64,000 bases of DNA, from contig NZ_VAUV01000010.1 of NCBI RefSeq assembly GCF_005780165.1, positions 1-64,000 on the forward strand, given 5' to 3'. The translations under genes were made by a program, and so were the position numbers. The stretch is from Phragmitibacter flavus (GTDB lineage: Bacteria > Verrucomicrobiota > Verrucomicrobiia > Verrucomicrobiales > Verrucomicrobiaceae). The first letter of the stretch is position 1, and each line of letters begins with the position of its first letter. A model generated the notes under the pieces. The model was not told where the DNA came from. It ran no database searches and saw nothing but the letters and a program-made list of their open reading frames with translations. Shown here in pieces: positions 6,203 to 26,237 of the stretch.

Positions 6203-6212
6203 ATGGATTTTT

Positions 6213-6240
6213 GATTTACGATTTGAGATTTACGATTTGA
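6213..6240. repeat. Tandem 14-bp direct repeat
   Basis: Two perfect copies of GATTTACGATTTGA fill the gap between the isomerase stop and the aldolase ATG. The role is unknown; it may be a simple slippage product or a protein site. Confidence 0.8.
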
Positions 6241-6250
6241 GATTGCCTTT

Positions 6251-7081: not shown

Positions 7082-7107
7082 TGGCTGATGGGATGACTTT
7101 TTGACCT

Positions 7108-8235
7108 ATGAAAACGATTGGTGTTGGCATTATTGGGGGTGGGTTGATGGGACGTGAGATGGCTTCGGCTTTTGCGCGTTGGTGCGCGTTGACGGATGTG
7201 GAGGTGAAGCCGGAATTGGTGGCGGTGGCGGATTTGGTGGAGGGAGTGCGCGATTGGTTTAAGGTGATCCCTTCGTGTCGGCAGTTGACGGCGGATTACA
7301 AGGAACTTTTGGCGAATCCGGAGGTGGAGGTGGTGTATGTGGCGGTGCCACATAACTTGCACGAAAAGCTTTATGTGGATGTGCTGGAGGCGGGGAAGGA
7401 TTTGTTTGCGGAGAAGCCTTTTGGGATGGATTTATCATCGGCCAGAAACATTGCGGCGGCGGTGGAGAAGTCGGGAAGGTTTACGCGATGCAGTTCGGAG
7501 TTTCCGTTTTTTCCAGGGGCGCAGCGGGTGGTGGATTATGTGAAGTCAGGCAGGCTGGGTCGGGTGCTGGAGGTGGTGTCGGGTTTTCACCATAGCAGTG
7601 ACCTGGATGCGACGAAGGCGGCGAACTGGAAACGGTTTAGCCGGACGTGTGGGGAGATTGGGGTGTTGGGGGATTTGGGGATGCATGCGTGTCATTTGCC
7701 GTTGCGGTTTGGGTGGCGGCCGAGTTCGGTTTATGCGCAGTTGCAAAAGGGGTATCCGCAGCGGCCGGATGGTCGCGGTGGGATGGCGGAGTGTGATACT
7801 TGGGACAATGCGATGTTGCATGCGTGGACTTCGATTGAAGGGCATGAGGTGCCGATGCGTTTGGAGATGAAAAGGCTGGCACCGGGGGAGACAAATTCGT
7901 GGTTTGTTGAGGTGCTGGGGACGGAGGGCGGGGTGCGCTATTCGACGAAGGAGCCGAAGACGTTGTGGGTTTTTGAGGGGGGCAAGGAACAGTTTTGGAA
8001 GAAGACGGACTTGGGGTTTGGGATGCCGTTCAAAGCGGTGACGGGGGGAATTTTTGAACCGGGGTTCCCTGATGTGATTCAGCAAATGTGGGCGGCGTTT
8101 TTGATGGAGCGTGAGGGGTTGCTGGGGGATCGGTTTGGGTGTGCGACGGTGGCGGAGGCGGTGGCGACGCAGGAGATTTTTGCAGCGGCGCTGGAGTCGC
8201 AGAAGGAGAAGAAGGTGGTGGTGATCCCGGCGTGA
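7108..8235 (+). CDS. Gfo/Idh/MocA family NAD(P)-dependent oxidoreductase
   Basis: 375 aa. The N-terminus forms a Rossmann fold with GVGIIGGGLMG at 4-14 for NAD(P). VYVAVPHNLH and AEKPFGMD (the EKP motif with the catalytic-site lysine) are at about 76-108. GDLGMHACHLPLRF near 189-202 carries the usual histidine of the second domain. These enzymes oxidise or reduce sugars, inositols and their derivatives. The gene is 26 bases after the aldolase, and its stop overlaps the ATG of the ABC ATPase (TGATG), so it is inside the same operon. Substrate unknown; a cyclitol or aldose of the cluster pathway is the reasonable inference. Confidence 0.92.
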   Translation: MKTIGVGIIGGGLMGREMASAFARWCALTDVEVKPELVAVADLVEGVRDWFKVIPSCRQLTADYKELLANPEVEVVYVAVPHNLHEKLYVDVLEAGKDLFAEKPFGMDLSSARNIAAAVEKSGRFTRCSSEFPFFPGAQRVVDYVKSGRLGRVLEVVSGFHHSSDLDATKAANWKRFSRTCGEIGVLGDLGMHACHLPLRFGWRPSSVYAQLQKGYPQRPDGRGGMAECDTWDNAMLHAWTSIEGHEVPMRLEMKRLAPGETNSWFVEVLGTEGGVRYSTKEPKTLWVFEGGKEQFWKKTDLGFGMPFKAVTGGIFEPGFPDVIQQMWAAFLMEREGLLGDRFGCATVAEAVATQEIFAAALESQKEKKVVVIPA

Positions 8236-9047
8236 TGTTATTGAACGAGATGAGTGATGTGCTGCGAGTTTCGGGGCTGCGGTATGTTCGCGATGATCGG
8301 GCGATTCTTGATGGGATCGACTGGTCGGTGCGGGCGGGGGAGCATTGGGTGGTGCTGGGGCCGAATGGGTGTGGGAAGACGTCGTTGATCAATTGCCTGA
8401 CAGGCTATGAGATGGCGACGGCGGGGTCGATCCAGGTGGGGGAGGCGCAGTTTGGTTTTGCGGACTGGCGGGAGGTGCGCAAGCATGTGGGACTGGTGAC
8501 GAGCACGCTGGTGTCTTATCTTGAGCCGTATGAGCCGGTGTTGGACGCGGTGGTGAGTGGTCGGGAGGCGATTCTGAATTTGGTGGGGGAGAGGGATGCG
8601 GCGTTGGAGGTTGAGGCGCGGGGGTTGCTGGAGCGGATGGGGTGCGGGCATTTGGTGGGGTCGCGCTGGGGGGTATTGTCGCAGGGGGAGAGGCAGAAGA
8701 TCTTGATTTGCCGGGCGTTTATGGCGGAGTTTGAGGTGCTGATTTTGGATGAACCTTGTGCGGGATTGGATCCGGTGGCGCGGGAGCATTTTTTGGGGTG
8801 GCTTGGTGAGATGGCGGAGAGGGAGGGGGCACCTTCACTGGTGATTGTGACGCATCATGTGGAGGAGATTTTGCCGTGTTTTTCGAAGGTGCTTTTGTTG
8901 AAGGAGGGGAAGGTGCTGGCGATGGGCGGGAAGAGTGAGGTGTTGAGGGATGAGTGGTTGGGGGAGGCTTATGGGGCGAGGGTGGAGGTGGGGGTGGATG
9001 AAATTGCGGGGAGATATGGATTGAGGATTTTGGAGGTTTTGAGGTGA
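8235..9047 (+). CDS. ABC transporter ATP-binding protein
   Basis: 270 aa with all ABC ATPase signatures: Walker A GPNGCGKTS, signature LSQGERQK, Walker B VLILDEP, D-loop and the switch His in VIVTHH. The start was taken at 8235 because it overlaps the previous stop in the TGATG arrangement; the frame is open further upstream (to 8139), but that part is Gly/Glu-rich shadow sequence inside the oxidoreductase gene. It resembles single-domain ModF/YheS-like or importer ATPases. No permease or binding-protein gene is adjacent, so it either serves a membrane partner elsewhere or has a non-transport role. Its place between sugar genes may mean uptake, but that is inference. Confidence 0.9.
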   Translation: MLLNEMSDVLRVSGLRYVRDDRAILDGIDWSVRAGEHWVVLGPNGCGKTSLINCLTGYEMATAGSIQVGEAQFGFADWREVRKHVGLVTSTLVSYLEPYEPVLDAVVSGREAILNLVGERDAALEVEARGLLERMGCGHLVGSRWGVLSQGERQKILICRAFMAEFEVLILDEPCAGLDPVAREHFLGWLGEMAEREGAPSLVIVTHHVEEILPCFSKVLLLKEGKVLAMGGKSEVLRDEWLGEAYGARVEVGVDEIAGRYGLRILEVLR

Positions 9048-9119
9048 ATGGCTGAGATACTGAGATACTGAATTATGAAGGGTGGACCTGCAATGATGCG
9101 ACGAGTTGGAGACGTTCGG

Positions 9120-9162
9120 GACAGGCAAAATGCCTGTCTCACCCACAGGCTGAAAGCCTGTG
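9120..9162. repeat. Two adjacent palindromes before the PfkB gene
   Basis: GACAGGCA-AAA-TGCCTGTC at 9120-9138 and CACAGGCT-GAA-AGCCTGTG at 9144-9162 each have perfect 8-bp arms and 3-base loops, separated by TCACC. The arms are close variants of each other and of the palindrome at 4995-5010. Neither is followed by T-runs, so they look like REP-type palindromes or transcript-processing or stabilising hairpins in the operon rather than terminators. Confidence 0.7.
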
Positions 9163-9177
9163 TCACGGGAGGAGATT

Positions 9178-10194
9178 ATGAGTGAAATGACACGCAATGG
9201 GATTTTGGCGGTCGGCAATTTTATTGTCGATGATGTGAAGTTGATCGATGCGTGGCCGGAGCAGGACATGCTGGCTTCGATTCGGTCGGAGAGGTCGAGC
9301 AATGGTGGGGGGCCTTATAATGTGCTGAAGGACTTGGCGGCAATGGGGGCGGGGTATCCGTTGCAGGCGGCGGGGTTGATTGGAGGGGATGCGCGGGGGG
9401 AGTGGATTTTACGCGATTGTGTTGGGGCGGGGGTTGGGGTGGAGCAGTTGCATATCACGGAGGAGGCTCCGACCTCGTATACCGATGCGATGACGGTGAT
9501 GGCGACGGGGCGGAGGACGTTTTTTCATCAGCGCGGGGCGAATGCGTTGCTGACGGAGAAGCATGTGGATTTTGCGCGGACTGAGGCGAAGCATTTGCAC
9601 CTGGGGTATCTGATGTTGCTGGATGCGATGGATGAGTTTGTGGAGGAGGAGGAAGGGCGGACGCGGGCTTCGATTTTGTTGGAGAGGGCGTTGGAGGCGG
9701 GGTTGACGACTTCGGTGGATATGGTGAGCACGGAGCATGGGCGGTTTCGGGAGATCGCGTTGAGTGCGTTGCCGTTTACGGATGTGCTGGTAATCAATGA
9801 GGTGGAAGCGGGGAAGGTGACGGGTCGGAATTTGCAGGGGGGGACCTTGGATGATTGTGTGGAGGCGGCGCGGGAGTTGATGGGGTGTGGAGTGCGGCGG
9901 CAGGTGGTGATTCATTTGCCACAAGGGGCGGTGGTGGTGGATGACAAGGGGTCGGTGGAGAGGGTGAAGTCGTTGAAGTTGCCGGAGGGGTTTGTGGCGG
10001 GGGCGACGGGGGGGGGGGATGCGTTTGCAGCGGGGTATCTGCATGGCTGGCATGAGGGATGGGATGTGGCACGGTCGTTGCAGTTGGCGGTTTGTGCGGC
10101 GGCGGCTTGTTTGTCGGATCCGACGCCGTCGGCAGGATTGTGTTCGGTGGCGGAATGTTTGAAACTGGGGGAATTGTATGGCGCTGATGTATGA
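9178..10194 (+). CDS. PfkB family carbohydrate kinase
   Basis: 338 aa of the ribokinase/PfkB fold, phosphorylating a sugar or sugar-derived alcohol with ATP. Visible: ILAVGNFIVDD at the start, the SSNGGGPYNVLKDLAAMGA glycine motif near 37-56, and the C-terminal signature GATGGGDAFAAGYLHG, where the catalytic Asp is that of GGGD (usually GAGD). The start at 9178 was chosen because GGAGGAG lies just upstream; a GTG at 9160 in the same frame would place the start inside a hairpin. The active-site Gly codons contain an 11-base G run (10008-10018), a slippage-prone tract. The end overlaps glcD by 17 bases. Probably the kinase of the cluster pathway; substrate not known. Confidence 0.9.
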   Translation: MSEMTRNGILAVGNFIVDDVKLIDAWPEQDMLASIRSERSSNGGGPYNVLKDLAAMGAGYPLQAAGLIGGDARGEWILRDCVGAGVGVEQLHITEEAPTSYTDAMTVMATGRRTFFHQRGANALLTEKHVDFARTEAKHLHLGYLMLLDAMDEFVEEEEGRTRASILLERALEAGLTTSVDMVSTEHGRFREIALSALPFTDVLVINEVEAGKVTGRNLQGGTLDDCVEAARELMGCGVRRQVVIHLPQGAVVVDDKGSVERVKSLKLPEGFVAGATGGGDAFAAGYLHGWHEGWDVARSLQLAVCAAAACLSDPTPSAGLCSVAECLKLGELYGADV

Positions 10195-11563
10195 AGATTT
10201 TTTGAGTTCGATTGCGGGGGTGGTGGGCGCTGATCAGGTGCTGACCGGGGATGAGGATTTGGTGCCGTATGGTTTTGATGGGACGGCGGTGTTGAAGCAG
10301 CGGCCCTTGTGTGTGGTGTTTCCGGCGGACAGTTTGCAAGTTTCGGGGTGTGTGAAGCTGGCGGCGTTGCATGCGGTGCCGGTGGTGGCGCGGGGGAGCG
10401 GGACGGGGTTGAGTGGGGGGAGTGTGCCGGTGGAGAAGTCGATGGTGTTGGTGTTGACGAGGCTGGACAAGATCCTTGAGGTGGATGAGCGGAATCTGAC
10501 GTTGCGGGCGCAGTGCGGGGTGATCACCAAGGAGGTGGATGATGCGGCGGGGAGGTTTGGGTTGTTTTATCCGCCGGATCCGGGGTCGATGAAGATCTCG
10601 ACGATTGGTGGCAATGTGGCGGAGAACAGCGGGGGTTTGAGGGGATTGAAGTATGGGGTGACGCGGGATTATGTGATGGGGTTGACGGTGGTGTTGCCGG
10701 ATGGGCGGCTGGTGGAGTTGGGCAACAAGTGTGTGAAGGATGTGGCGGGGTATTCGATGAAGGATTTGTTTATCGGGAGTGAAGGGACGCTGGGAATCAT
10801 TACAGAGGTGTTGTTGAAGTTGCTGCCGAAACCGCAGGCGCGACGGACGATGCTGGCGTTGTATGATTCGATGGAGGCGGCGGCGGAGACGGTGAGTGCG
10901 ATCATTGCGGCGAAGATCATTCCTTGCACGCTGGAGTTTCTCGATCGGATGACGGTGGGATGTGTGGAGGATTATGCGAAGATCGGGTTGCCGACGGATG
11001 TGGAGGCGTTGTTGTTGATTGAGACCGACGGGCATCCGGTGGCGGTGGAGGATGAGACGGTGCGGATGCGGGACATTGCGTTGAAGTTTGGGGCGCGTGA
11101 GGTAAAGGTGGCGGTGGATGAGGCGGAGGGGGCGAGGCTGGCTTCGGCGCGGCGGCAGGCGTTTTCGGCGCTGGCGCGGGTGAAACCGACGACGATTTTG
11201 GAGGATGTGACGGTGCCGAGGAGTGAACTGGCGCGGATGGTGAAGTTCATCCGGCTGACGGCGGAGCGGCATCGGTTGTTGATTGGCACATTTGGGCACA
11301 TGGGGGATGGGAATTTGCATCCGACGTTTTTGACGGATGAGCGGGACATTGAGGAGATGCACCGGGTGGAGCTGGCGTTGGAGGAGATCGTGGAGGAGAC
11401 GCTGGCGGTGGGGGGAACGGTGACGGGCGAGCATGGGGTGGGGCTGGCGAAGAAGGTGTTTTTGAAAAGGCAGTTTTCGGAGGCGAGTTATGAGTTGATG
11501 CGTGAGGTGAAGCGGGCCTTGGATCCGCGTGGCTTGTTGAATCCGGGGAAGATTTTTGACTGA
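10178..11563 (+). CDS. glcD: FAD-linked oxidase, glycolate oxidase subunit GlcD-like
   Basis: 461 aa of the FAD_binding_4 (VAO/PCMH) family with FAD-oxidase C-terminal domain. The FAD motif ARGSGTGLSGGSVP is at about 69-82. The segment GGNVAENSGGLRGLKYG and the C-terminal HMGDGNLHP and TGEHGVGLAKK are characteristic of glycolate oxidase GlcD and D-lactate dehydrogenases. It oxidises a 2-hydroxy acid, passing electrons to the Fe-S subunit encoded next. It overlaps the kinase gene by 17 bases; an ATG at 10187 is an alternative. The pairing with glcF 9 bases downstream is the standard GlcDF arrangement; no separate glcE is seen. Glycolate or D-lactate would be the expected product of an aldolase route upstream, which is inference. 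Confidence 0.92.
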   Translation: MALMYEDFLSSIAGVVGADQVLTGDEDLVPYGFDGTAVLKQRPLCVVFPADSLQVSGCVKLAALHAVPVVARGSGTGLSGGSVPVEKSMVLVLTRLDKILEVDERNLTLRAQCGVITKEVDDAAGRFGLFYPPDPGSMKISTIGGNVAENSGGLRGLKYGVTRDYVMGLTVVLPDGRLVELGNKCVKDVAGYSMKDLFIGSEGTLGIITEVLLKLLPKPQARRTMLALYDSMEAAAETVSAIIAAKIIPCTLEFLDRMTVGCVEDYAKIGLPTDVEALLLIETDGHPVAVEDETVRMRDIALKFGAREVKVAVDEAEGARLASARRQAFSALARVKPTTILEDVTVPRSELARMVKFIRLTAERHRLLIGTFGHMGDGNLHPTFLTDERDIEEMHRVELALEEIVEETLAVGGTVTGEHGVGLAKKVFLKRQFSEASYELMREVKRALDPRGLLNPGKIFD

Positions 11564-11572
11564 GACTGACTG

Positions 11573-12898
11573 ATGGCGACGACCTTAAAACAGTTGGATT
11601 ATTCGGTGCTGCAGCAGTGCATGCATTGCGGGATGTGTTTGCCGACGTGTCCGACTTATGTGGAGACGAAGCGGGAGCGGAACAGTCCGCGGGGGAGGAT
11701 TGCGTTGATGCGGTCGATTGCGGATGGGGAGACGCAGGTGACGAAGTCGTTTGGCGAGGAGATGTATTATTGTCTTGGCTGTCTGGCTTGTGTGACGGCG
11801 TGTCCGGCGGGAGTGAATTATGTGGAGTTGTTTGAGACGGCGCGGGCGGATGTGGAGCGCAAGGGGGTTTTGCACACCCCGCAGCGCGGGTTTTGGCGTT
11901 GGTTGACGCTTGAGGTGCTGTTCATGCGGCCGAGGTTGTTGCGGGCGGTGGGGATGGGGTTGAGGTGGTATCAACGGAGTGGGGTGGAGAAGGTGGTGAG
12001 GGGCTCGGGTTTGTTGAGGTTGTTGCCGGAAGGGTTGAGGAGGTTGGAGCCGCAGACGCCGGTGATGTCCGCGGTGTTTTCGAACGGATTGATTGAGGAG
12101 GTGGAAGAGCCGGTGGGGGTGAGGAAATATCGGGTGGCGTTGTTGACGGGGTGTGTGCAGGATCTGGCTTTTGCGGAGGTGAACCGGGATACGGCGGATG
12201 TGCTTTTGGCGAATGGTTGTGAGGTGGTGACGCCATCGGTGCAGCCTTGTTGTGGGTCGTTGCATGGTCACAATGGAGCACCGGAACTGGCGATGGAACT
12301 GGCTCGGCGGCAGTTGGATTTGTTTGAGGTGGAATCGTTGGATGCGATCATCAGCAACGCGGGGGGATGTGGGTCTCATTTGAAACATTATGGGCCGCTG
12401 TTGAAGGAGGATGCGCGGTATGCGGAGCGGGCGAGATTGTGGGATTCGAAGGTGCGCGATGTGCATGAGTGGCTGGCGGAGATCGGTTTTCGGGTGCCAA
12501 GTGCAGGGTGTGGGGTGGAGGAGGTGACGTATCATGAGTCGTGTCATTTGACGCATGGACAGAAGGTGGTGGCGGCTCCGAGGCTGGTGCTGGGGTCGAT
12601 TCCGGGATTGAAGGTGGTGGAGTTGCCGGAGAGCAACTGGTGCTGCGGGAGTGCGGGGATTTACAACATCACGCAGCCGGAGCAGTCGGCGAAGTTGTTG
12701 AAGAGGAAGGTGGAGAAGATTGCGGAGACGGGTGTGCCTGTGGTGGCGACTTCGAATCCGGGGTGTCATTTGCAGATTGCGGCCGAGTTGAAGGCGGACT
12801 TGGGAAATAAGTGCAAGTCGGTGACGCAGCCGGTGACCTTGTTGGCGCAGGCTTATCGGAATGAGAGGAGCGGAGGTGTGGTCAATGGCGAAGCTTAA
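11573..12898 (+). CDS. glcF: Fe-S subunit of glycolate/lactate oxidase, GlcF-like
   Basis: 441 aa. Two ferredoxin-type [4Fe-4S] sites are visible at the N-terminus: CMHCGMCLPTCP (about 16-27) and CLGCLACVTACP (about 67-78). Two cysteine-rich CCG domains follow (PCCGSLHGHNG near 223-233, NWCCGSAGIYN near 358-368, each with upstream Cys partners such as ESCHLTHGQ). This is the GlcF/heterodisulfide-reductase-like architecture that passes electrons from the flavoprotein to the quinone pool; menaquinone genes (menF-menD) occur at 41.6 kb. It starts 9 bases after glcD and overlaps the following methyltransferase gene by 14 bases, so transcription and possibly translation are coupled. Confidence 0.93.
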   Translation: MATTLKQLDYSVLQQCMHCGMCLPTCPTYVETKRERNSPRGRIALMRSIADGETQVTKSFGEEMYYCLGCLACVTACPAGVNYVELFETARADVERKGVLHTPQRGFWRWLTLEVLFMRPRLLRAVGMGLRWYQRSGVEKVVRGSGLLRLLPEGLRRLEPQTPVMSAVFSNGLIEEVEEPVGVRKYRVALLTGCVQDLAFAEVNRDTADVLLANGCEVVTPSVQPCCGSLHGHNGAPELAMELARRQLDLFEVESLDAIISNAGGCGSHLKHYGPLLKEDARYAERARLWDSKVRDVHEWLAEIGFRVPSAGCGVEEVTYHESCHLTHGQKVVAAPRLVLGSIPGLKVVELPESNWCCGSAGIYNITQPEQSAKLLKRKVEKIAETGVPVVATSNPGCHLQIAAELKADLGNKCKSVTQPVTLLAQAYRNERSGGVVNGEA

Positions 12899-13429: not shown

Positions 13430-14863
13430 ATGTTGAAGTGTCGAAAAGTGAAGTTGGTGGAGCGGTCACAGATCGAGGGATTTTGCCGGTGCCGGGGACT
13501 GATTTTTGCGCTGATTTGTTGGAGCGCATCGATAACCTGGATGTTTGGCGCGAATCCGGTGATGGCGCCTCCGCATCTGGTGGTGTTTCTTGCGGATGAT
13601 TACAGTTTCCTGGATTCGAAGGTGGAGGGGGCGGCAGACATGCGCACGCCGAACCTGTCGAAGCTGGCGGCAGCGGGGATGACTTTTACGCATGCGTTTG
13701 TGGCTTCACCGAGTTGTGCGCCGAGCCGGGCGGCGCTGTTGACGGGATTGATGCCGGCTCGCAATGGCGCGGAGGTGAATCACAGCAAACCACGGGCGGA
13801 AATCAAGAAGCTGCCTGCGTATTTGCAGGAGCTGGGATACGAGGTGGTGGCGTTTGGCAAGGTGGCGCATTACCGGCATACGGGCGACTATGGCTTTGAT
13901 CATTTTGCACATGACAAGTTTCATGATCATGACGGGGTTCCGGCGGCGTTGAAGTGGTTGAGGGAGCGGAAGAGTTCCAAGCCGTTGTGCATCTTCATCG
14001 GATCGAACTGGCCCCATGTGCCGTGGCCCGAGCGGGCTTCATGGGCTGAACCGTCAGCAATGCGGCTGCCACCTTCGCAGGCGGACACCCCAGAAACGCG
14101 GGATGCCCGCGCGGCCTACGCGACTGCCGTGACACGGATGGATGATGAACTGGGAAAGGTGATGGCAGCGGTGAATGAGACGTTGGGCACCAATGTGGCG
14201 TTGATGATGACGAGCGATCATGGGGCGCAGTTTCCCTTCGCCAAATGGAACTGTTATGATGCGGGGATTCGGGTTCCATTGATGGTGTCGTGGCCGGGAG
14301 TGGTGGAGGCGGGGACTCGCAGCGAAGCGATGGTGAGTTGGGTGGACATCCTGCCGACTTTGGCGGAAATGGGTGGAGGGAAGGTTGCGGCGAAAATCGA
14401 CGGACAATCATTTGCTCCGGTTCTGAGGAGGCAGAAGCAGGAGCACCGCGAACGCATCTTCACCACGCACAGCGCTGATGGGAAGATCAATGTTTACCCG
14501 ATGCGGAGCGTGCGGACGAAGGATTGGAAGTTGATCGTGAATCTCACTCCAGAAGCGAAGTTCACCACACACATTGATCTGGTTCCCCACGGCAAGTTGC
14601 CGGGTTATTGGGGAGGTTTCTGGGAGTCCTGGGTCAGAATGGCGGAGTCCAGTCCGGACATCGCGGCGAAGGTGCAGCGTTATCGTCATCGCCCTGAAAT
14701 GGAGCTTTACGATTTGGTCAACGATCCTCATGAGATGAGCAATCTTGCCGCCGATCCCGCGCAATTCGACCGCGTGCGGGAACTGCGGTCGGAACTGGAG
14801 ACCTGGATGACGGCGCAGGGAGATCAACGAGTAGAAAAGGGGCCAGGACCCGAGGTGAAATGA
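13430..14863 (+). CDS. Exported sulfatase (formylglycine type)
   Basis: 477 aa, sulfatase family S1 (alkaline-phosphatase fold). LADDYSF near 54-60 gives the metal-binding Asp pair, and CAPSR at 96-100 is the C-x-P-S-R signature whose Cys is converted to formylglycine. HYRHTGDYGFDHF, SNWPHVPWP and TSDHGAQF supply further metal and active-site residues (Asp-His of the DHG motif). A basic N-terminal segment and a hydrophobic helix (about 22-40) form a signal peptide. The C-terminal part contains the usual YDLVNDPHEMSNLA segment. It removes sulfate from an ester, probably on a polysaccharide; the nearby lyase locus makes that likely. No formylglycine-generating enzyme is encoded in the window. 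Confidence 0.94.
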   Translation: MLKCRKVKLVERSQIEGFCRCRGLIFALICWSASITWMFGANPVMAPPHLVVFLADDYSFLDSKVEGAADMRTPNLSKLAAAGMTFTHAFVASPSCAPSRAALLTGLMPARNGAEVNHSKPRAEIKKLPAYLQELGYEVVAFGKVAHYRHTGDYGFDHFAHDKFHDHDGVPAALKWLRERKSSKPLCIFIGSNWPHVPWPERASWAEPSAMRLPPSQADTPETRDARAAYATAVTRMDDELGKVMAAVNETLGTNVALMMTSDHGAQFPFAKWNCYDAGIRVPLMVSWPGVVEAGTRSEAMVSWVDILPTLAEMGGGKVAAKIDGQSFAPVLRRQKQEHRERIFTTHSADGKINVYPMRSVRTKDWKLIVNLTPEAKFTTHIDLVPHGKLPGYWGGFWESWVRMAESSPDIAAKVQRYRHRPEMELYDLVNDPHEMSNLAADPAQFDRVRELRSELETWMTAQGDQRVEKGPGPEVK

Positions 14864-17284: not shown

Positions 17285-17333
17285 GGCTAAAGGCTAACGG
17301 CTAACGGCTAACGGCTAACGGCTAAAGGCTTCA
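17285..17333. repeat. Seven-bp tandem repeat (GGCTAAC)
   Basis: Units start at 17285 (GGCTAAA), then four perfect GGCTAAC at 17292-17319, then GGCTAAA and a diverged GGCTTCA. It is located right after the ubiB stop and upstream of the sigma-factor gene. Such short tandem arrays expand by slippage; here it may alter spacing in the promoter region, but no function is shown. Confidence 0.85.
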
Positions 17334-17451: not shown

Positions 17452-18030
17452 ATGAATGAGGCGGCGTGCATGGGCAATGATCGATCCAATCCGCCGGGAG
17501 AGCTCGGAGCGACTGCACGGTCGTTTGGGGGTTTTGATCGTCTGTTGGCGGAGCATTCTTCTTCGATCCGCCTTTATGTCCGGTCGTTGATGCCGGGTTA
17601 TGAGGGGGCGGATGATTTGGCGCAAGAGACGTTGATCAAGCTTTGGGAAAAGCGCGATTCGTTTGAAGAGGGGACGAACTTTAAGGCTTGGGCGTTTCAA
17701 GTCGGCAAATTTATGGTGATGAATCAACGCCGGAAATTGTCGCGCTCGCCGGTGGTGATGTTGGATGACGAATTGATCGAGAAGATTGACCAGCGTTGGA
17801 TGGAGAAGGAAGAGAGCCTGACAGATGAGCATCATCGAGCTTTGAAGGCGTGTTTGAATTTGCTAAAACCAGAGGATCAAAATCTTTTGCACGCCCGTTA
17901 TGCAACCGCTATTTCGCTGGAGACATATGCTGAGCAGGAGGGCACCCGGTCGGGCACCCTCAAGGCAAGGTTGTTCCGTTTGAGAGACGCTTTGCGGGAC
18001 TGCATCGACCGCCGACTAGGACATTCATGA
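17452..18030 (+). CDS. ECF-type RNA polymerase sigma factor
   Basis: 192 aa, a sigma-70 family ECF-type factor of the kind common in Rhodopirellula and Verrucomicrobium. Region 2 contains SSIRLYVRSLMPGYEGADDLAQETLIKLWEK (about 37-67; the DDLAQET core is diagnostic) and FKAWAFQVGKFMVMNQRRK. Region 4 is at about 130-185, with ETYAEQEGTRSGTLKARLFRLRDALRDC as the helix-turn-helix. It directs RNA polymerase to its target promoters. Its stop overlaps the start of the FecR-like gene in an ATGA arrangement (18027-18030), so the two proteins are probably made in fixed ratio as a sigma/anti-sigma pair. Confidence 0.93.
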   Translation: MNEAACMGNDRSNPPGELGATARSFGGFDRLLAEHSSSIRLYVRSLMPGYEGADDLAQETLIKLWEKRDSFEEGTNFKAWAFQVGKFMVMNQRRKLSRSPVVMLDDELIEKIDQRWMEKEESLTDEHHRALKACLNLLKPEDQNLLHARYATAISLETYAEQEGTRSGTLKARLFRLRDALRDCIDRRLGHS

Positions 18031-19475
18031 ATCCCATTCCTCCAGAAGACTCCGCTAAAATCAATCGTGCGCTCGATCATTTGATCGATGGCAGTTTGTC
18101 GGCTGAGGAGCTTTTGGAAGTTCAGGAATGGATGAAGGCGGATGCGAAGGTGCTCAATCTGTATCTCGAGAAGATGTCCATGGAGTCTTTGTTGAAGGAT
18201 CATGTGTGGATTCGGAAGGAGCCTGAGGTTTTCACGGCACCGATCAAGTTGCGGAGGGTGGATCGACGACGGTTGGTGATGCTGGCTGCGGCGGCATGTT
18301 TGGCATTGTTGCTGGTGTTGACGTTGTGGATGAAACCGAGGCAGGATGCCGGGGCGGGACTCGTTTCTGGCGAAAGGTTGCCAAGTGTGCAATTTTCGGC
18401 GGCATCGGTTTTTGAAGGGGTGTCGTCCAAGACGTCAGATGATGGAGCGTTGCCTTTCGGTGATGGCGTGGTGATGCAGGACGGTTCGGTGTCGATTCGA
18501 CTGCCAAGTGGGGTCGAGGCGTTGTTGAAAAGCCCTTCGCGGTTTTCGATCACGGGTGCGAACCGCTTGAAGTTGGATCAGGGATCGGGATGGTTTCGAG
18601 TGCCTCCGGAGGCCAAGGGGTTTGCGGTGGATTTGCCGGAGATGGAGGTCATTGATTTAGGCACAGTGTTTACGGTGCGGGTGGATGAGCTCGAACATCA
18701 GGTGCAAGTCGAGCAAGGGTTGGTTGAGGTGAGGCAACGGACGGTCGGACTTGGAACCCAGCGGTTAAAGGCGGGGGAGATGCTGGTGCGGCGCGCCAAC
18801 CACGAGACGGTTCAACTGGTATCGGGAGCGTCTTTGGTTGACCCGGATTCCTTGAAGGATGACGCAGAGGTCGTATTCCGAGAGTCGTTAACGGGTGTGT
18901 CGGACCAGCCATTTTCGGAACGGATACCGTTGAAGGGTAGTTGGACTGTTTTGGAAGGTATTCCGCAGATCAGTCATGGGCGGTTTGTGGCCAGGTCGAA
19001 CTTCACGCATTTGATGGGCCGGTTTTCCCGTCCCATTGAGCCTTCGGAAAATGCGGTAGTTATGGTGAGCTTCAAATCGGTGTCTCCGATGTCGCTGTTT
19101 CACTCCGAAGGATTTGCCGGCATCAGTTTGTTTGACCGGGATGGGGAACTGATGTTTTTTGGCGACAAAGGGGAAGATTCTTACTCTTGGGAACTGTTGA
19201 CTTTTGGTAAAAATTATCGGGGTCCGGCGGAGAAACGGAGGGCTTATGATCTTGCGATTCAAGGCAGTGCGGAAACCTTTACGCTGCGATACCGTCAGCG
19301 CACCGGTGCTTTTGAAGTGTTTCGCGGATGGGGGGCACAGGGTTTGCCGTTGATTCGCGGAACGACGGATGCTGGCTTGCGATTTGACGGAGTGAGAATC
19401 GCCAATGGTGAAGGCGGGGATTTCTCTTTTGAGGATATTGAGGTGTCGGTGGTGAAGGAGACGAAGGGCCAATGA
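18027..19475 (+). CDS. FecR-like anti-sigma/transmembrane sensor with C-terminal lectin-like region
   Basis: 482 aa. The cytoplasmic N-terminus (about 1-75) is of the type found in anti-sigma domains; one transmembrane helix follows (about 79-98, LAAAACLALLLVLTL). A FecR-type domain lies in the periplasm (VSIRLPSGVEALLKSPSRFSI, EVIDLGTVFTVRV, VEQGLVEVRQ, about 145-245), then about 220 residues that look like a concanavalin/LamG-type beta fold. It would hold the upstream sigma factor and release it on a periplasmic signal, possibly an oligosaccharide. It starts inside the sigma stop codon (ATGA). The lyase and sulfatase genes immediately downstream are the obvious targets, which is inference. 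Confidence 0.85.
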   Translation: MNPIPPEDSAKINRALDHLIDGSLSAEELLEVQEWMKADAKVLNLYLEKMSMESLLKDHVWIRKEPEVFTAPIKLRRVDRRRLVMLAAAACLALLLVLTLWMKPRQDAGAGLVSGERLPSVQFSAASVFEGVSSKTSDDGALPFGDGVVMQDGSVSIRLPSGVEALLKSPSRFSITGANRLKLDQGSGWFRVPPEAKGFAVDLPEMEVIDLGTVFTVRVDELEHQVQVEQGLVEVRQRTVGLGTQRLKAGEMLVRRANHETVQLVSGASLVDPDSLKDDAEVVFRESLTGVSDQPFSERIPLKGSWTVLEGIPQISHGRFVARSNFTHLMGRFSRPIEPSENAVVMVSFKSVSPMSLFHSEGFAGISLFDRDGELMFFGDKGEDSYSWELLTFGKNYRGPAEKRRAYDLAIQGSAETFTLRYRQRTGAFEVFRGWGAQGLPLIRGTTDAGLRFDGVRIANGEGGDFSFEDIEVSVVKETKGQ

Positions 19476-19601
19476 GGGCGTTTTTTATCCGCGCTGGATA
19501 GATTCCGTGATTTTTTTGGCAACCGAATGGCGGAAGGAAACATTTGGAGATTGGCGGGCGCATTGAAGGGCCCGCGTGTTCATTCTACTCGACTCAATTT
19601 C

Positions 19602-21620
19602 ATGGTTCGCCAATCTGCTTTACTCGTCTGTCTGCATCTGGTTTTTTTGCCAATAGGGGTGAATGGTCAGGAAGCAGCTTCTGGGGCAAAAATGGTGGTG
19701 CAACAGGATCGTGAGCGCATCTTAACTGCGGCTGAAGCGGTGCTCGCCAAGATGCCATTCAGCATTACTTTTGACCGATCTCCCCTAAGCGAAGGTGGGC
19801 CGGACGAGTTCTTCTCGATGAGCGATCATTACTGGCCTGATCCTGCCAAGGCGGACGGCAAACCATACATCATGAGGGATGGTCAGTCGAACCCGGGGAA
19901 TTTTAATCAACACCGGGAAACCCTGATGGCGATGCGGGATGCCACGTCTGTTTTGGCGGCAGCGTATTGGCTGACAAAAGATGAACGTTATGCCGCCAAG
20001 GCAGTGGAGATGCTGAAGGTGTTTTTTCTTGATGAGGGGACTCGAATGCATCCCAGTCTGGATCATGCTCAGGCAATCATAGGCAAGCCGACGCCGGACC
20101 GGGGGACCGGACTGATTGATACCTTGCATTTGGTGGAAGTGCCGTTGTCGGTGCTGACGCTGCGTAATTCCAAGGCGATGAAGGTGGAAGTTTTTGATGG
20201 CTTGCGGCAGTGGTTCGCCGATTACACTTCCTGGCTTGTTAGCAGTTCCAAGGGGAAGAATGAGGCGAAAGCGATAAACAATCACGCCGTGGCCTACTGG
20301 CTTCAAGTGGCGTCATTCGCGACGCTTACGGAAAATGAAGCGTTGTTGGTCGAATGCCGACGTCAATTTAAGGAGGTTTTCATCGGTGTGCAGATGGCTG
20401 TGGATGGTGGCTTTCCATTGGAGTTGGGGCGAACAAAACCGTATGCCTATTCGATTTTCCAACTGGATAACATGACGGCGCTTTGCCAGCTGTTATCCAG
20501 TTCGTCGGACAATCTTTGGACGTTTACGACGAGCGACGGCAAATGCATGCGAAGAGCCATGGCCTTTTTGTATCCTTTTCTTGCCGATAAATCCTCCTGG
20601 CCTTTGAAACCCGATGTTCATGCTTGGGAGGGATGGCCAGTTCGTCAATCGGCGTTGTTGTTTGGAGGCATCGCCTTTCACGAGGACAAATATTTGCGGT
20701 TGTGGCGCAGTTTGAATGCCGATCCAGAAGCATTCGAAATTCGGCGAAATAACGCCATCACGCAGCCTTTTTTGTGGACTGCGCTGTTTGATCATTCGAC
20801 CGCGACCGCTGCGCCAAAGAAACTGCGTGCCAAGGATGTTTTTGAGCCAAACCAAAGGATCATGTTCGCAGACATTTTCAAGGGTTTGCCTTTTGAAAGG
20901 TGGAACATTTCGGAAGATGATCGATATTCACTTCCGGTTGCTAGTTCGGAACGCATTCAGGTGGTGGATGCGCCGGGACCATGTGAAGATGGCAAGGCCG
21001 TGAAGTTTGTGGTGAGAAGGGCACCCAACTCATTTAGGTCGGAAATTTCACTGCCTCATGAAGAGGGGTTTCAGGAGCGATGGTATGCGGCCAAAATTTT
21101 CATTCCTGAAGATTGGGTATTTGATCCATTAAAGGCGCAGGATATCGTTTTGCAGTGGCATGGCATACCTGGCAATTGGAAACCTACGCATCCCAACCTG
21201 GCTATCTCCATCAGCAATGACCGATGGTATATACGGCAGAGTTTTGGTTCGCCACAAGAGGGGGTGTCTCGAAACAGTGAACGGCTTGAAGAGTCTGTGC
21301 AGAGGGGGCAATGGGTCTCTTGGATCATTCATGCCAAGTGGCATCCTGGTGCCGAGGGATTGTTGCAGATTTGGAAGGACGGTAAATTGGTGTTTAATCA
21401 AGCCGGGCCAAATGTGTATGGCACCATCGGCGTGGAATATACCCCTTACTTCAAGACTGGAATCTACCGGCCTGAGTGGCATGTCAATACTGAGCGCAAG
21501 TTGGAAAATTTTAGGACCGAAGTGGCGGAATCCAAGATAAAGACGGTGTTCGTCAGTGATGTGAAAGTCGGTAGTGAACGGGCACGATTGGAAGACTTCA
21601 TCGGCAACGCCTCAAAGTAA
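19602..21620 (+). CDS. Two-domain polysaccharide lyase (alginate-lyase-like plus PL20-like)
   Basis: 672 aa from ATG 19602, chosen because MVRQSALLVCLHLVFLPIGVNG forms a good signal peptide; the frame continues upstream to 19527 without one. Residues about 35-400 match the alginate lyase superfamily (alpha/alpha toroid): MSDHYWPDP, NFNQHRE, AINNHAVAY (catalytic Asn-Asn-His about 226-228) and a GRTKPYAYS segment with Arg and Tyr near 277-283. From about 430 to the end a second domain follows, of the beta-jelly-roll polysaccharide lyase type: FRSEIS, ERWYAAKIFIPEDW, IVLQWHGIPG, GQWVSWIIHAKW, KTGIYRPEWH. Both types cleave uronic-acid polymers by beta-elimination; families of both folds include glucuronan lyases. 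Exported, downstream of the sigma/FecR pair. Substrate (glucuronan, alginate or a sulfated polyuronate) is inference. Confidence 0.87.
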   Translation: MVRQSALLVCLHLVFLPIGVNGQEAASGAKMVVQQDRERILTAAEAVLAKMPFSITFDRSPLSEGGPDEFFSMSDHYWPDPAKADGKPYIMRDGQSNPGNFNQHRETLMAMRDATSVLAAAYWLTKDERYAAKAVEMLKVFFLDEGTRMHPSLDHAQAIIGKPTPDRGTGLIDTLHLVEVPLSVLTLRNSKAMKVEVFDGLRQWFADYTSWLVSSSKGKNEAKAINNHAVAYWLQVASFATLTENEALLVECRRQFKEVFIGVQMAVDGGFPLELGRTKPYAYSIFQLDNMTALCQLLSSSSDNLWTFTTSDGKCMRRAMAFLYPFLADKSSWPLKPDVHAWEGWPVRQSALLFGGIAFHEDKYLRLWRSLNADPEAFEIRRNNAITQPFLWTALFDHSTATAAPKKLRAKDVFEPNQRIMFADIFKGLPFERWNISEDDRYSLPVASSERIQVVDAPGPCEDGKAVKFVVRRAPNSFRSEISLPHEEGFQERWYAAKIFIPEDWVFDPLKAQDIVLQWHGIPGNWKPTHPNLAISISNDRWYIRQSFGSPQEGVSRNSERLEESVQRGQWVSWIIHAKWHPGAEGLLQIWKDGKLVFNQAGPNVYGTIGVEYTPYFKTGIYRPEWHVNTERKLENFRTEVAESKIKTVFVSDVKVGSERARLEDFIGNASK

Positions 21621-21630
21621 TGACTACGCG

Positions 21631-23163
21631 ATGCGTTCCTACCAGGGTTTTCAAGTTATGACATTCAACATGATGATTTTGATAGGGTGGAGCTTGCTTT
21701 TTACTGGCCTGGTTCAAGCTGAAGATCGACGAAATCATCCGAATGTTTTGTTGATCGCGGTGGACGATCTCAACGATTGGATCGGGTGCATGAAGGGGCA
21801 TCCACAGGCGAGGACACCGCACATGGACAAGCTTGCAGCACGCGGGGTGTTGTTCACCAATGCTTATTGTGCTGCACCGGTTTGTCTGGCTTCGCGCACG
21901 GCAATCTTTTGTGGTCGATATCCTGATCAGACAGGTGTTTTTAGTAACTGGGGGAAGACGCGTGGAAAGATGCCTGCAAAGTCATTGCAGATGCCGCTTC
22001 ACTTTTCAGCAACGGGATATGAGACACTTGGTGCTGGCAAACTTTATCACGCAGCCTCGCCGCAATTTTTTGATGACTATTTCGATACCGAGCAGCGCTG
22101 GAGTCCATTCACTCAAGAGCAGGCGCAATATACGGAAGCGGAATTGCCGAGTAAAGGGAGTGACTCGCCGGAGCATTTGGTGGTTGATGGCCCCGGTGGG
22201 AAAGACTGGATTTTGCCCCTAAACGGACTACCCAGTGAACGCAATGCTGATGGTAAAGAAGGGGAGTCGTTTGATTGGGGGGCTGTCGATGTTGCGGATG
22301 TTGAGATGGGAGACACGCGCATCACTAACTGGGCGATGGAAAAACTGGGTGGGCAAAGGACCAAACCGTTTTTTCTCGGAGTAGGATATTACCGGCCACA
22401 CATTCCGCTTTTTGCGCCGCAACAAGATTTTGATGTCCTGCCGCCGGTGGAGGCGATTCAACTGCCGTTATGCATCCCTGATGATTTGGACGACTTAGGG
22501 GAGGCAGGCAGACGGTTTGCACTAGATCCAATTACGGCAGGCACCCATCAGTTGGTGACTGATCACGCGCAATGGAAACAGGCGGTGCGGGCCTATCTGG
22601 CGTGCATTGGTTATGTGGATCGTCAGATCGGGAGGTTGATTACCAAGCTGGATGACAGCGAGCACGCGGGGAATACGTGGATCATTTTGTTTAGCGATCA
22701 TGGCTGGCAGTTGGGGGAAAAGCAGCATTGGGGCAAGTGGACAGGTTGGAGGACATCGTCACGTATGCCTTTGATCATTGTTCCACCTGCCAATTTACAA
22801 TTGCCGCGAGGGAAGGTTTGTGCTGAACCGGTGAGTCTAATGGACTTGTATCCGACGCTGATTGAAGTGTGTGGTTTGGCAGAAAAGAAAGAGGTGGCTG
22901 GCAGGTCTTTGATGCCATTGTTGAAGAATCCGGAGCAGGACAATGGACGTGCAGTTGTGACGGCTTTTGATCCGGGTAATCATGCCTTGTCTACCCGGGA
23001 ATGGCGTTATCTTCGTTATGAAAATGGGGAGGAGGAGCTTTACCATGTTCATGCTGATCCGCATGAATGGCACAACCTTGTTAACGTAGCGCAACACCGT
23101 TCCATCTTGACAGAAATGCGTCACAGGCTTGAAAGTGAACTGCTCGACATTCGGGAGCAGTAG
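21631..23163 (+). CDS. Exported sulfatase, iduronate-2-sulfatase-like
   Basis: 510 aa from ATG 21631; the longer frame overlaps the lyase gene, and an ATG at 21658 (MTFNMM) gives the tightest signal peptide. Family S1 sulfatase: LIAVDDLNDW supplies the metal Asp residues, and VCLASRTAIFCGRYP holds the modified Cys (Cys85 of C-L-A-S-R, the C-x-A-S-R variant). The layout resembles iduronate sulfatases: AKSLQMPLHFSATGYETLGAGKLYH, GYYRPHIPLFAPQ, and FSDHGWQLGEKQHWGKW. It follows the lyase by 10 bases, so lyase and sulfatase are probably co-expressed and act on the same sulfated uronate-containing glycan, as inference. Confidence 0.93.
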   Translation: MRSYQGFQVMTFNMMILIGWSLLFTGLVQAEDRRNHPNVLLIAVDDLNDWIGCMKGHPQARTPHMDKLAARGVLFTNAYCAAPVCLASRTAIFCGRYPDQTGVFSNWGKTRGKMPAKSLQMPLHFSATGYETLGAGKLYHAASPQFFDDYFDTEQRWSPFTQEQAQYTEAELPSKGSDSPEHLVVDGPGGKDWILPLNGLPSERNADGKEGESFDWGAVDVADVEMGDTRITNWAMEKLGGQRTKPFFLGVGYYRPHIPLFAPQQDFDVLPPVEAIQLPLCIPDDLDDLGEAGRRFALDPITAGTHQLVTDHAQWKQAVRAYLACIGYVDRQIGRLITKLDDSEHAGNTWIILFSDHGWQLGEKQHWGKWTGWRTSSRMPLIIVPPANLQLPRGKVCAEPVSLMDLYPTLIEVCGLAEKKEVAGRSLMPLLKNPEQDNGRAVVTAFDPGNHALSTREWRYLRYENGEEELYHVHADPHEWHNLVNVAQHRSILTEMRHRLESELLDIREQ

Positions 23164-23401
23164 TGTCACTTGATCCTAAATTATAGGCAGATCATGCTTC
23201 AGAGTGAACTTGTGATTTTGATTGTCGCTACGTGATCATGTGACCAGTGAGGGAACGAATTGGATTTCGCAGTAGAGAAATATTTGGTTTTTTTGCAACC
23301 GAAGTTGGCGGTCGAACATCCGCCCTCTGAATTCCTTCAGCCGCACTTCGCGGGATTCGAAGGAAACCCTCGTTCCCGTAATCTCCAAAATCTCATCTTC
23401 T

Positions 23402-25177
23402 ATGGAATATCCTGATGTGCCTATCCCGCGTTTCCAAAAAACTACGAGGTCCATTTTTTTGTGTGGGGGGTGCTTGTTGACCATGGCCGCAATGCAAACT
23501 CCACTAGGTGCGGCCACTTTGTTCTGGGATTTTACGCCAGCGACTGCCAATGGAGTTTCCAATGGAGGAGGCACGAGCGTTGCCCCGGGCAATTGGTTGG
23601 GTGGTGCAAGTTGGGACAGGGGCACGGGTAGTGGCTATCAAATATGGGCTGATGGAAATGATGCATCGATTGCAGGTAATTCGGCCGTGGCGGTAAGTGG
23701 CCCTGTCACGATGAACTCTTTGAACATCACTGGTGGGACTGTGAGAATTCAGTCGGACGCTGCCGCCAATGATCATGTGCTTACTCTCACCAATGGTGGA
23801 ACGATTGCGTCTGGTGGCGTGGTGTTGTTTGGTGGAGATCAAGCCAATGTGTCTGGCAATGAGCGGTCGCTTGATGTGAGGCTTGGCGGCGACATCAATA
23901 CCAGTGGCACGAGTGGGGGCAACATTGATCTTTTTGGGGGCACCATGCTGTCGTCCACTTCTACCGCGGGAAGGAATATTTACGCCAATGTGCGGATCGG
24001 TTTTGGCCAGGGAGCAAGCACCTCAGCAATTTTTGGGAGCAGCACAAACACCGGTTCACTGTTCATCAGCGGCAACCTTTCCACCTTTGGTGGTTCGCGC
24101 CGCATTGATGTGGTGTCAGGGATGACGGTTGAAGCTTCGGGCAACTATTTGAATGCCAACTCGGGTAGTGCAGCGTCGTTGACGACGGCTGGTGGAGGGG
24201 TTTTGAAGGTTGGCGGAGTCGCGTCGAATAGTGCCATCAACACGTTTGTCGTTGGTGCCGGCACGGATACAACAACGCTGGAACTGACTGGAAGTGGAGT
24301 GATGTCGTCTACTGGGTCTGCGACAGGAACCATGGGCAATAATTTTTCAATAAACTCGGTCAATGCGGTGTTGAAGTTCAACTCCTCTTTTGCACAGTCG
24401 GCCACGGCGGGGGTGCAAAACTTTGCGGGTGTTATTTCTGGAGGAGGACGTCTTGTTCAGGAAGGTAATGGAGTTTTGGCGTTGACCAACAACAACACTT
24501 ACACCGGCACAACGACGGTAAGTGGTGGGGTTTTGCAGGTAGGCAGTGGAGGCGTTGGGTCTACCGGAACCGGTGGAGTTACCATTCAGAATGGTGGAAC
24601 ATTGCGCGGCACGGGAACGATTCGCAGCAGTCTGTTTGCGGCGCAACTGGGAGCGGTGATCCAAGCGGGGGACGATGGCGCAGCGACAAGTTTTGGAACG
24701 CTGAAGTTCACTCCGGCTTCGGGCAGCGGCATTTTTGATTTTCAAAGCGGCAGCAGTGTCAGTTTGGGCCTCAATCCCAGCGGCTCAGGTGATTTGCTTA
24801 GTTTCGATGGTTTGTCTGCTGGCACGTTAGTGTTTGATGGGGACCTGCTGGTGTCGGCGGCAGGTTTTGTGCCGACATCAGTGCAGGTTTTTAACCTGCT
24901 TGATTGGATCAATGTCGATACCGTCACGTTTAACAGCCGTTACAATGCGGCTTCTTATGCGGGGCTGCTGCTTGGCAACGGCGATGATAACTTGGGTTTT
25001 GATTTGCCGGATATTTCGGGATCGGGTTATGGATGGGATATTGGCCAGTTTCAGACCAACGGGACGATTGCGACTGCTTTGCTGGTGCCGGAGCCTTCCG
25101 CATTGTGGTTGGGCGCGGTTGGATTGGCAGCGATGATGTTTAGACGCAAACGCCGGATGGGGACGGAGTTGAGTTGA
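23402..25177 (+). CDS. PEP-CTERM protein with autotransporter-type beta-strand repeats
   Basis: 591 aa, Gly/Ser/Thr/Asn-rich. A signal peptide (CGGCLLTMAAMQ...LGAA) leads into a long beta-solenoid-like region with recurrent NITGGTV, NGGTIASGG, VNGVLKVGG-type strands, and a recognisable autotransporter-associated repeat near 340-400 (LTNNNTYTGTTTVSGGVLQVG). The C-terminus is a PEP-CTERM sorting signal: VPEPSALWLG, a hydrophobic helix, then RRKRR. Exosortase would cleave and attach or release it at the surface; no exosortase gene is seen here. It is the last gene of the sigma/FecR-lyase-sulfatase run, 238 bases after the sulfatase, and may be a surface glycan-binding or matrix protein. Confidence 0.87.
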   Translation: MEYPDVPIPRFQKTTRSIFLCGGCLLTMAAMQTPLGAATLFWDFTPATANGVSNGGGTSVAPGNWLGGASWDRGTGSGYQIWADGNDASIAGNSAVAVSGPVTMNSLNITGGTVRIQSDAAANDHVLTLTNGGTIASGGVVLFGGDQANVSGNERSLDVRLGGDINTSGTSGGNIDLFGGTMLSSTSTAGRNIYANVRIGFGQGASTSAIFGSSTNTGSLFISGNLSTFGGSRRIDVVSGMTVEASGNYLNANSGSAASLTTAGGGVLKVGGVASNSAINTFVVGAGTDTTTLELTGSGVMSSTGSATGTMGNNFSINSVNAVLKFNSSFAQSATAGVQNFAGVISGGGRLVQEGNGVLALTNNNTYTGTTTVSGGVLQVGSGGVGSTGTGGVTIQNGGTLRGTGTIRSSLFAAQLGAVIQAGDDGAATSFGTLKFTPASGSGIFDFQSGSSVSLGLNPSGSGDLLSFDGLSAGTLVFDGDLLVSAAGFVPTSVQVFNLLDWINVDTVTFNSRYNAASYAGLLLGNGDDNLGFDLPDISGSGYGWDIGQFQTNGTIATALLVPEPSALWLGAVGLAAMMFRRKRRMGTELS

Positions 25178-25283: not shown

Positions 25284-26237
25284 TTACTTCACATTGCCCA
25301 GGGTGGCGTCGCCTTCTTTGAGGCCGAGGGCCCAAAGAATCCCGCCGAGGATGTGGTCTTGATAGACCTGGGCGATTTCAGGGGCGTTTTTGCGCTCGTT
25401 GGTGCCGGCTTTCCAAGTGGGATCCCAAACGTCTTCGCGGTGGCCGAGGCTGGTGTAGAAGACTTTGCCTTTGCCGAATTCCTTGTTCCAGCTGATGGGG
25501 TAATAGCCAGGGGTGCCGTCGTTTGGATGGGCATTCAGGCCGAGGAGACCATGGACGGTCGCGGGGTCGTAGGATTTGAAGATGTAGATTTCGTCGAAGA
25601 CTTTGTAGCCGCCGGGGAAGGGTTGGGTGGCGGGATGGGCTTTGTCGTGGATGATGGGCTCGACTTCCACTTGGGCTTTGTGGGTTTGGAATTCGCCGCC
25701 GAGCATGTCAACATAGGGACGGAATTTGTGGAAGGTGTCGGAACCGGAGTGCATCGCGATGAAAGCTTTGCCGCCTTTGATCAGGTCAATGAAAGCCTGG
25801 GGGTCGGGGAAGGGGAGTTCGCCGGTGGTGTTGCAGAAGACGAAGCCGTCGTATTGCTGAATGTTTTCAGTCGCCAGCTTGCCGTGGGCGTAGGCAGTGA
25901 TTTTGTCTTCCCAAGCTTTGCGGAGGGGAAGAAATTCGGCCATGGCGGCGGCGTAGGCTTCTTCTTTGGCCTTGAAGGTTTCGTCGGTATCTTTGGCTTC
26001 GCGTTTGGGTTTGTTGGGGTTTTTTGGTGCGGGTTCGGGCTGTTGAACGAAGTCGACGGTGAAGGCTCCGCTTTTGGTGGCCAATTCGGCGAGGACTTTT
26101 TCGCCGGTCTCGATGGAGGAGTGGCGGAAGCCTGTGGTGATGGAGACAACGAGCAGCTTTTTGGGGGCGGCTTCGGCGAAGGTGGTGAAGGCAAAGATGC
26201 CCGCGAGGATGAAGGTGGGAAGACGAAGGATTCGCAT
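25284..26237 (-). CDS. Secreted ThuA domain protein
   Basis: 317 aa. Signal peptide at 1-23 (LPTFILAGIFAFTTFAEA). The ThuA fold (class I glutamine amidotransferase-like, first described in trehalose utilisation) is recognised by LLVVSITTGFRHSSIETGEKVL, YDGFVFCNTTGELPFPDPQAF, GGKAFIAMHSGSDT, MLGGEF, DEIYIFKSYDP and YYPISWNKEFGKGKVFYTSLGHRED. Between the first and second strands (about residues 65-105) is a Lys/Glu/Pro-rich insertion that is unusual. In PVC bacteria ThuA-like proteins are found with sugar catabolism and Gfo/Idh/MocA oxidoreductases; biochemical role not established. Own terminators at both ends (25221-25256 and 26330-26358) indicate a single-gene transcript. Confidence 0.9.
   Translation of the reverse strand: MRILRLPTFILAGIFAFTTFAEAAPKKLLVVSITTGFRHSSIETGEKVLAELATKSGAFTVDFVQQPEPAPKNPNKPKREAKDTDETFKAKEEAYAAAMAEFLPLRKAWEDKITAYAHGKLATENIQQYDGFVFCNTTGELPFPDPQAFIDLIKGGKAFIAMHSGSDTFHKFRPYVDMLGGEFQTHKAQVEVEPIIHDKAHPATQPFPGGYKVFDEIYIFKSYDPATVHGLLGLNAHPNDGTPGYYPISWNKEFGKGKVFYTSLGHREDVWDPTWKAGTNERKNAPEIAQVYQDHILGGILWALGLKEGDATLGNVK

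Follow-up and report, generated by a model that had tools for sequence, protein, structure and literature searches.

Within positions 17452-25177 of a 64,000-nucleotide stretch of Phragmitibacter flavus DNA (contig NZ_VAUV01000010.1 of assembly GCF_005780165.1, positions 1 to 64,000; hereafter the window), five forward-strand open reading frames (ORFs) encode an extracytoplasmic function (ECF) sigma factor, a FecR-type anti-sigma factor or sensor, a lyase with fused PL38-type and PL20-like domains, an S1 sulfatase, and a secreted PATR-repeat protein with a PEP-CTERM sorting signal. A sequence-only reading had proposed a coupled sigma/FecR pair followed on one strand by lyase, sulfatase, and PEP-CTERM protein, and the ORFs, their domains, and the ATGA overlap of the pair confirm it. 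The sigma ORF opens at 17452, ends at 18030, and scores 156 bits against TIGR02989, the Rhodopirellula/Verrucomicrobium sigma family (cut-off 124.6). Because the start context GCATGGGCAATGA is common to this gene and to its counterparts in two related loci (L091 and L092), and is recognisable in two more (L093 and L095), the true start is probably the ATG at 17479 rather than 17452. The sigma factor is 69-76% identical to those of L091-L094, and the FecR ORF (18027-19475) overlaps its stop codon by ATGA, a geometry repeated in relatives. Upstream of the sigma gene and just after an ABC1 kinase gene sits a forward-strand tandem repeat of the heptamer GGCTAAC (17285-17330, 6.6 copies), which belongs to the locus by position only. 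No other site in the 5.9 Mb genome has three exact copies in succession, and the length of the repeat could vary and affect sigma expression.

The enzymes that follow are recognisable in some detail. The lyase ORF (19527-21620), whose signal-peptide start probably lies at 19602, matches PF05426 at residues 100-358 and PF14099 at 473-654, so that a PL38-type domain with its N-terminal signal peptide (19602-20800) is joined to a PL20-like domain (20801-21620). The former matches the structures 3nfv (E 3e-59) and 8bdq (E 3e-40); NNH 251-253 and Tyr308 (697-residue numbering) align with PL38 structures, keeping the conserved Asn-His and Tyr positions, whose catalytic roles we infer from PMC12088678. 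The PL20-like domain (PF14099, E 1e-31) matches glucuronan lyase A (2zzj) by sequence at E 6e-8 and is absent from the lyase homologues of L093, L094, L042, and L102. Within the sulfatase ORF (21574-23163, PF00884 and PF16347; start probably at 21631 or later), C-L-A-S-R at residue 104 (nucleotide 21883) fits the formylglycine-type motif C-x-[PA]-x-R; orthologues in L091-L093 are 75-78% identical, and the nearest PDB chains are 7oz8 (named a choline-sulfatase), the arylsulfatase 6hhm, and human iduronate-2-sulfatase. A further S1 sulfatase lies upstream of the locus at 13430-14863 and is 26-28% identical to the second sulfatases of L091 and L094. The last ORF (23402-25177) combines a PATR repeat (PF12951) with a PEP-CTERM motif (PF07589), a candidate cargo in a genome that also encodes exosortases. 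It is the least conserved member of the locus (orthologues 61% identical in L094, where the gene is divergent from sigma, and 53% in L091), stands 238 nucleotides from the sulfatase gene, and may be transcribed alone. Downstream, the locus is flanked by a reverse-strand ThuA protein gene (25284-26237). Further upstream, positions 5159-12898 hold a run of sugar-metabolism type (xylose-isomerase-like protein, DeoC/LacD aldolase, GFO/IDH/MocA protein, and PfkB kinase, then glycolate-oxidase-like FAD and Fe-S proteins).

The arrangement is not confined to one genome. Among 68 Verrucomicrobiaceae genomes, the window's own included, FecR orthologues occur in 8 (51-68% identity in relatives) and relatives of the lyase in 26, of which close PL38 homologues account for 9 genomes, the limit for "close" (E below 1e-180) having been set once the data were known. 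Orthologous FecR and close PL38 coincide in seven genomes, even where the genes are not adjacent (hypergeometric P ~3e-7, a value that ignores phylogeny and depends on the post hoc E line); in genus g11 the sigma/FecR pair and the lyase lie apart. The sequence-only reading had suggested looking for the same gene order in other Verrucomicrobiota and would have counted its absence everywhere against itself; the order is there: sigma, FecR, PL38 (with PL20 in L091 and L092), GFO/IDH/MocA oxidoreductase, sulfatase, and a second sulfatase follow one another in L091, L092, and L093, with conserved proteins 65-78% identical among the window and L091-L094. The oxidoreductase is absent from the corresponding place in the window. 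In L091 the series goes on to a 3-keto-disaccharide hydrolase, then a glucosamine-isomerase/PIG-L protein, and then the PEP-CTERM orthologue, a gene linked in two of the four related genomes (L091 and L094). The order is rearranged in L094 (contig DLGZ01000016, Verrucomicrobiaceae bacterium UBA7681), where the PEP-CTERM orthologue diverges from sigma and PL38 lies further downstream; because its sole long match to the window sulfatase is only ~29% identical, that sulfatase is not an orthologue.

In the FecR protein, the FecR domain (PF04773) spans residues 151-234, and a low-confidence AlphaFold 2 model of the full-length protein (mean predicted local distance difference test, pLDDT, 49), which was kept out of the fold search, places helices of a putative N-terminal anti-sigma part within residues 9-56 and a transmembrane helix at ~81-100. 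A profile search of the PDB gave weak FecR-domain matches to 4m0h/4m0n and nothing else. The C-terminal 200 residues (nucleotides 18864-19472) are 61-75% identical among close relatives, have no credible Pfam match, and constitute an un-named family. A two-sequence AlphaFold model of this domain (mean pLDDT 53, predicted template modelling score 0.58) retrieved mostly ConA-like lectins and LNS domains from the PDB by Foldseek (E ~1e-4), which places the domain, with low confidence, in the ConA-like beta-sandwich class and speaks to fold, not to ligand. No sequence relation to LamG, CBM96, 3-keto-disaccharide hydrolase, or PL20 was detectable with hhalign and small profiles, and neither Pfam nor hhalign with small LamG profiles assigned the domain to Laminin_G_3 (PF13385). 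Across the order, 35 of 387 genomes contain a match to the family; homologues sharing 24-36% identity occur in Akkermansiaceae-type genomes (family f2) and in a single genome from another family, mostly within FecR proteins. At least four FecR paralogues in the same genome end in LamG (three) or CBM96 (one), and a C-terminus of binding type is therefore usual in this family, not peculiar to the present locus. The earlier suggestion of an additional lectin-like domain stands as far as a low-confidence model can carry it, whereas its special status does not. If the single transmembrane helix is right, the domain would face the periplasm and read imported or periplasmic fragments rather than the intact polymer outside. 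That it senses glycan directly is possible, although we would lean slightly against it; family members and LamG paralogues also adjoin genes of non-glycan type, and the domain therefore need not bind glycan at all.

In genome G067 (L098, 4964-11385, reverse strand) a co-orthologous pair of sigma gene and second FecR copy, a PL8 lyase, and an HGSNAT-type protein lie in a row, and the best PDB match of the lyase is a chondroitinase (chondroitinase-ABC-like), making this a sister to the arrangement in the window, with a lyase of GAG (glycosaminoglycan) type. After other pairs carrying this C-terminal domain family, the next co-directional gene encodes GH57 in three loci (L159, L160, and L162) and GH13 in one (L165), while in L149 and L150 it encodes a weakly TSP3-like protein, followed by GH97. 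Several other sigma/FecR pairs of the same C-terminal family have no recognisable partner. The tree of C-terminal domains groups them mostly by neighbour type, which fits co-evolution but also plain inheritance of gene order.

The locus shares features with several known systems and differs from each. Like the FecI-FecR cell-surface signaling of E. coli Fec and the ECF/anti-sigma control of Bacteroidetes polysaccharide utilization loci (PULs), it sets an ECF sigma factor beside a membrane protein with a FecR domain, next to genes that look like targets. Unlike them, it contains no FecA-type receptor and no SusC/D, as the sequence-only reading had noted, and in their stead has, at the C-terminus of its FecR, a domain that is probably ConA-like. 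SusD (PF07980) has no match anywhere in the genome; the ten TonB-receptor matches all lie on other contigs and none on the locus contig; and no STN domain exceeds the cut-off genome-wide, the one sub-threshold match lying on another contig that has no TonB-receptor match. As in a Bacteroidetes PUL, carbohydrate-active enzymes (CAZymes) are co-localized with a linked regulator gene, whose control over them is predicted. SusCD-less loci are not new, because Orellana et al. 2021 (PMC8857213) report PUL-like loci in marine Verrucomicrobiota that lack SusCD. Clustered CAZymes and sulfatases without SusCD are shared with those loci, but that paper centers on fucose and rhamnose loci, and neither sigma nor anti-sigma factor occurs in its main text. 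A literature search for sigma/FecR-controlled glycan loci in Verrucomicrobia turned up no relevant paper, which is not proof of absence. Within the genome itself, other TIGR02989 sigma factors with FecR-LamG partners share both the sigma family and the partner architecture; the C-terminal domain in the window differs in having no detectable sequence similarity to LamG and in having glycan-degrading neighbors.

By sequence the lyase belongs to the family of CUL-I, TpPL38A, Aly38A, and Amuc_0778, retaining the Asn-His and Tyr positions, and differs from them in its fusion to a PL20-like domain and its placement in a sigma/FecR operon. CUL-I and TpPL38A act on glucuronan and Aly38A on alginate (PMC9029943), while the Akkermansia enzyme Amuc_0778 acts on all glycosaminoglycans (GAGs) tested except heparin sulfate (PMC11790493). 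In relatives, the operons also include genes for a PIG-L deacetylase, glucosamine-isomerase-type proteins, and further sulfatases, an addition that suggests amino sugars. Given the activity of the Akkermansia PL38 on GAGs, the sulfatases, relatives' PIG-L and aminosugar-type genes, and the PL8 neighbor in G067, a GAG-like polymer appears no less likely than glucuronan, alginate, or ulvan; these three, the candidates first named for this locus, are no better guesses. We put a GAG-like substrate at close to an even chance, marginally below it, and, because of the PL20 domain in the fusion, glucuronan stays a candidate.

Taken as a whole, the locus is read here, with a slight preference over all else, as a small substrate-induced operon for a uronic-acid polysaccharide, switched by the FecR/sigma pair. 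The lyase, with its PL38 and PL20 domains, and the sulfatase would be exported to cut and desulfate this polysaccharide, which is most likely GAG-like or a sulfated glucuronan. The resulting oligosaccharides in the periplasm would be detected, directly or indirectly, by the FecR domain and the ConA-like C-terminal domain, upon which the inner-membrane FecR would release or activate its co-translated ECF sigma factor. Sigma would then raise transcription of its own operon, the lyase, the sulfatase, and possibly the PEP-CTERM surface protein, a candidate anchor for substrate or enzymes on the surface of the cell. The narrower proposition that the pair regulates this operon is held with good confidence. 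What does not survive is the earlier idea of a self-contained glycan system: genes for a transporter, for an unsaturated-uronyl hydrolase, and for uronate catabolism are all missing from the locus, and the sole confident GH88/105 match of the genome is on another contig (C11).

Several observations count against a substrate-induced operon of this kind. Beyond the missing transporter, the ConA-like assignment relies on a model of mean pLDDT 53, and no promoter motif common to the upstream regions of eight sigma genes rose above shuffled controls. Those neighbors of the LamG and CBM96 paralogues that were profiled do not look glycan-utilization-like and include pseudopilin-like and DUF genes. 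Sigma/FecR pairs of the same C-terminal family lie upstream of DUF1549/1553 with DUF1501 in six loci of family f2 (L151, L155, L156, L157, L164, and L167) and, in L161 (7444-14966), immediately precede genes for TamB and Omp85. FecR orthologues have no adjacent lyase in L095, L096, and L097, and in genome G065 the pair is present with no lyase match.

The Akkermansiaceae linkages to DUF1549/1553/1501 and TamB/Omp85, together with the surroundings of the LamG and CBM96 paralogues, favor an alternative in which the pair does control the operon but answers envelope or secretion state, the ConA-like domain being a generic protein- or envelope-binding module; since several separate branches of the domain family adjoin PL38, PL8, GH57, GH97, and GH13, a non-glycan signal of this kind is unlikely. 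Less probable still is a role in remodeling, in which lyase, sulfatase, and PEP-CTERM protein would act on exopolysaccharide or stalk/holdfast material made by the cell itself rather than feed on an external glycan. Exopolysaccharide production has been associated with PEP-CTERM systems (PMC1569441), L091 and L094 keep the PEP-CTERM gene linked to the pair, and the absence of transport and uronate catabolism from the locus would fit such a role; however, the operons of relatives also contain sulfatases, a 3-keto-disaccharide hydrolase, and genes of PIG-L and aminosugar-isomerase type, as expected of a degradation pathway, and close relatives have the locus in a patchy distribution. That the pair is a mere neighbor regulating other genes in trans, as the orthologous pairs without adjacent lyase in L095-L097 might imply, is distinctly improbable given linkage kept in five genomes and the co-occurrence of PL38 and FecR across the family. 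Chance neighborhood as the whole explanation is rejected because the linkage recurs in four genomes besides that of the window.

The locus hints that genes for sugar degradation may be controlled independently of SusC/SusD, the system of Bacteroides, and bears on how SusCD-less Verrucomicrobiota sense polysaccharides and turn on their degradation, in a phylum whose outer-membrane transport outside SusCD is named by Orellana et al. 2021 (PMC8857213) as needing study. In its boldest and rather unlikely form, the proposal is that Verrucomicrobiota possess a receptor-free ECF/FecR sensor family in which the periplasmic ConA-like domain has diversified in step with the enzyme encoded next to it (PL38, PL8, GH57, GH97, or GH13), each member reading a different glycan directly. 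If true, this would be a modular alternative to both SusCD-linked and FecA-linked control of glycan use. Further, a sensor whose putative ligand-binding domain varies with the neighboring enzyme would make glycan specificity predictable from sequence, and testable domain by domain.

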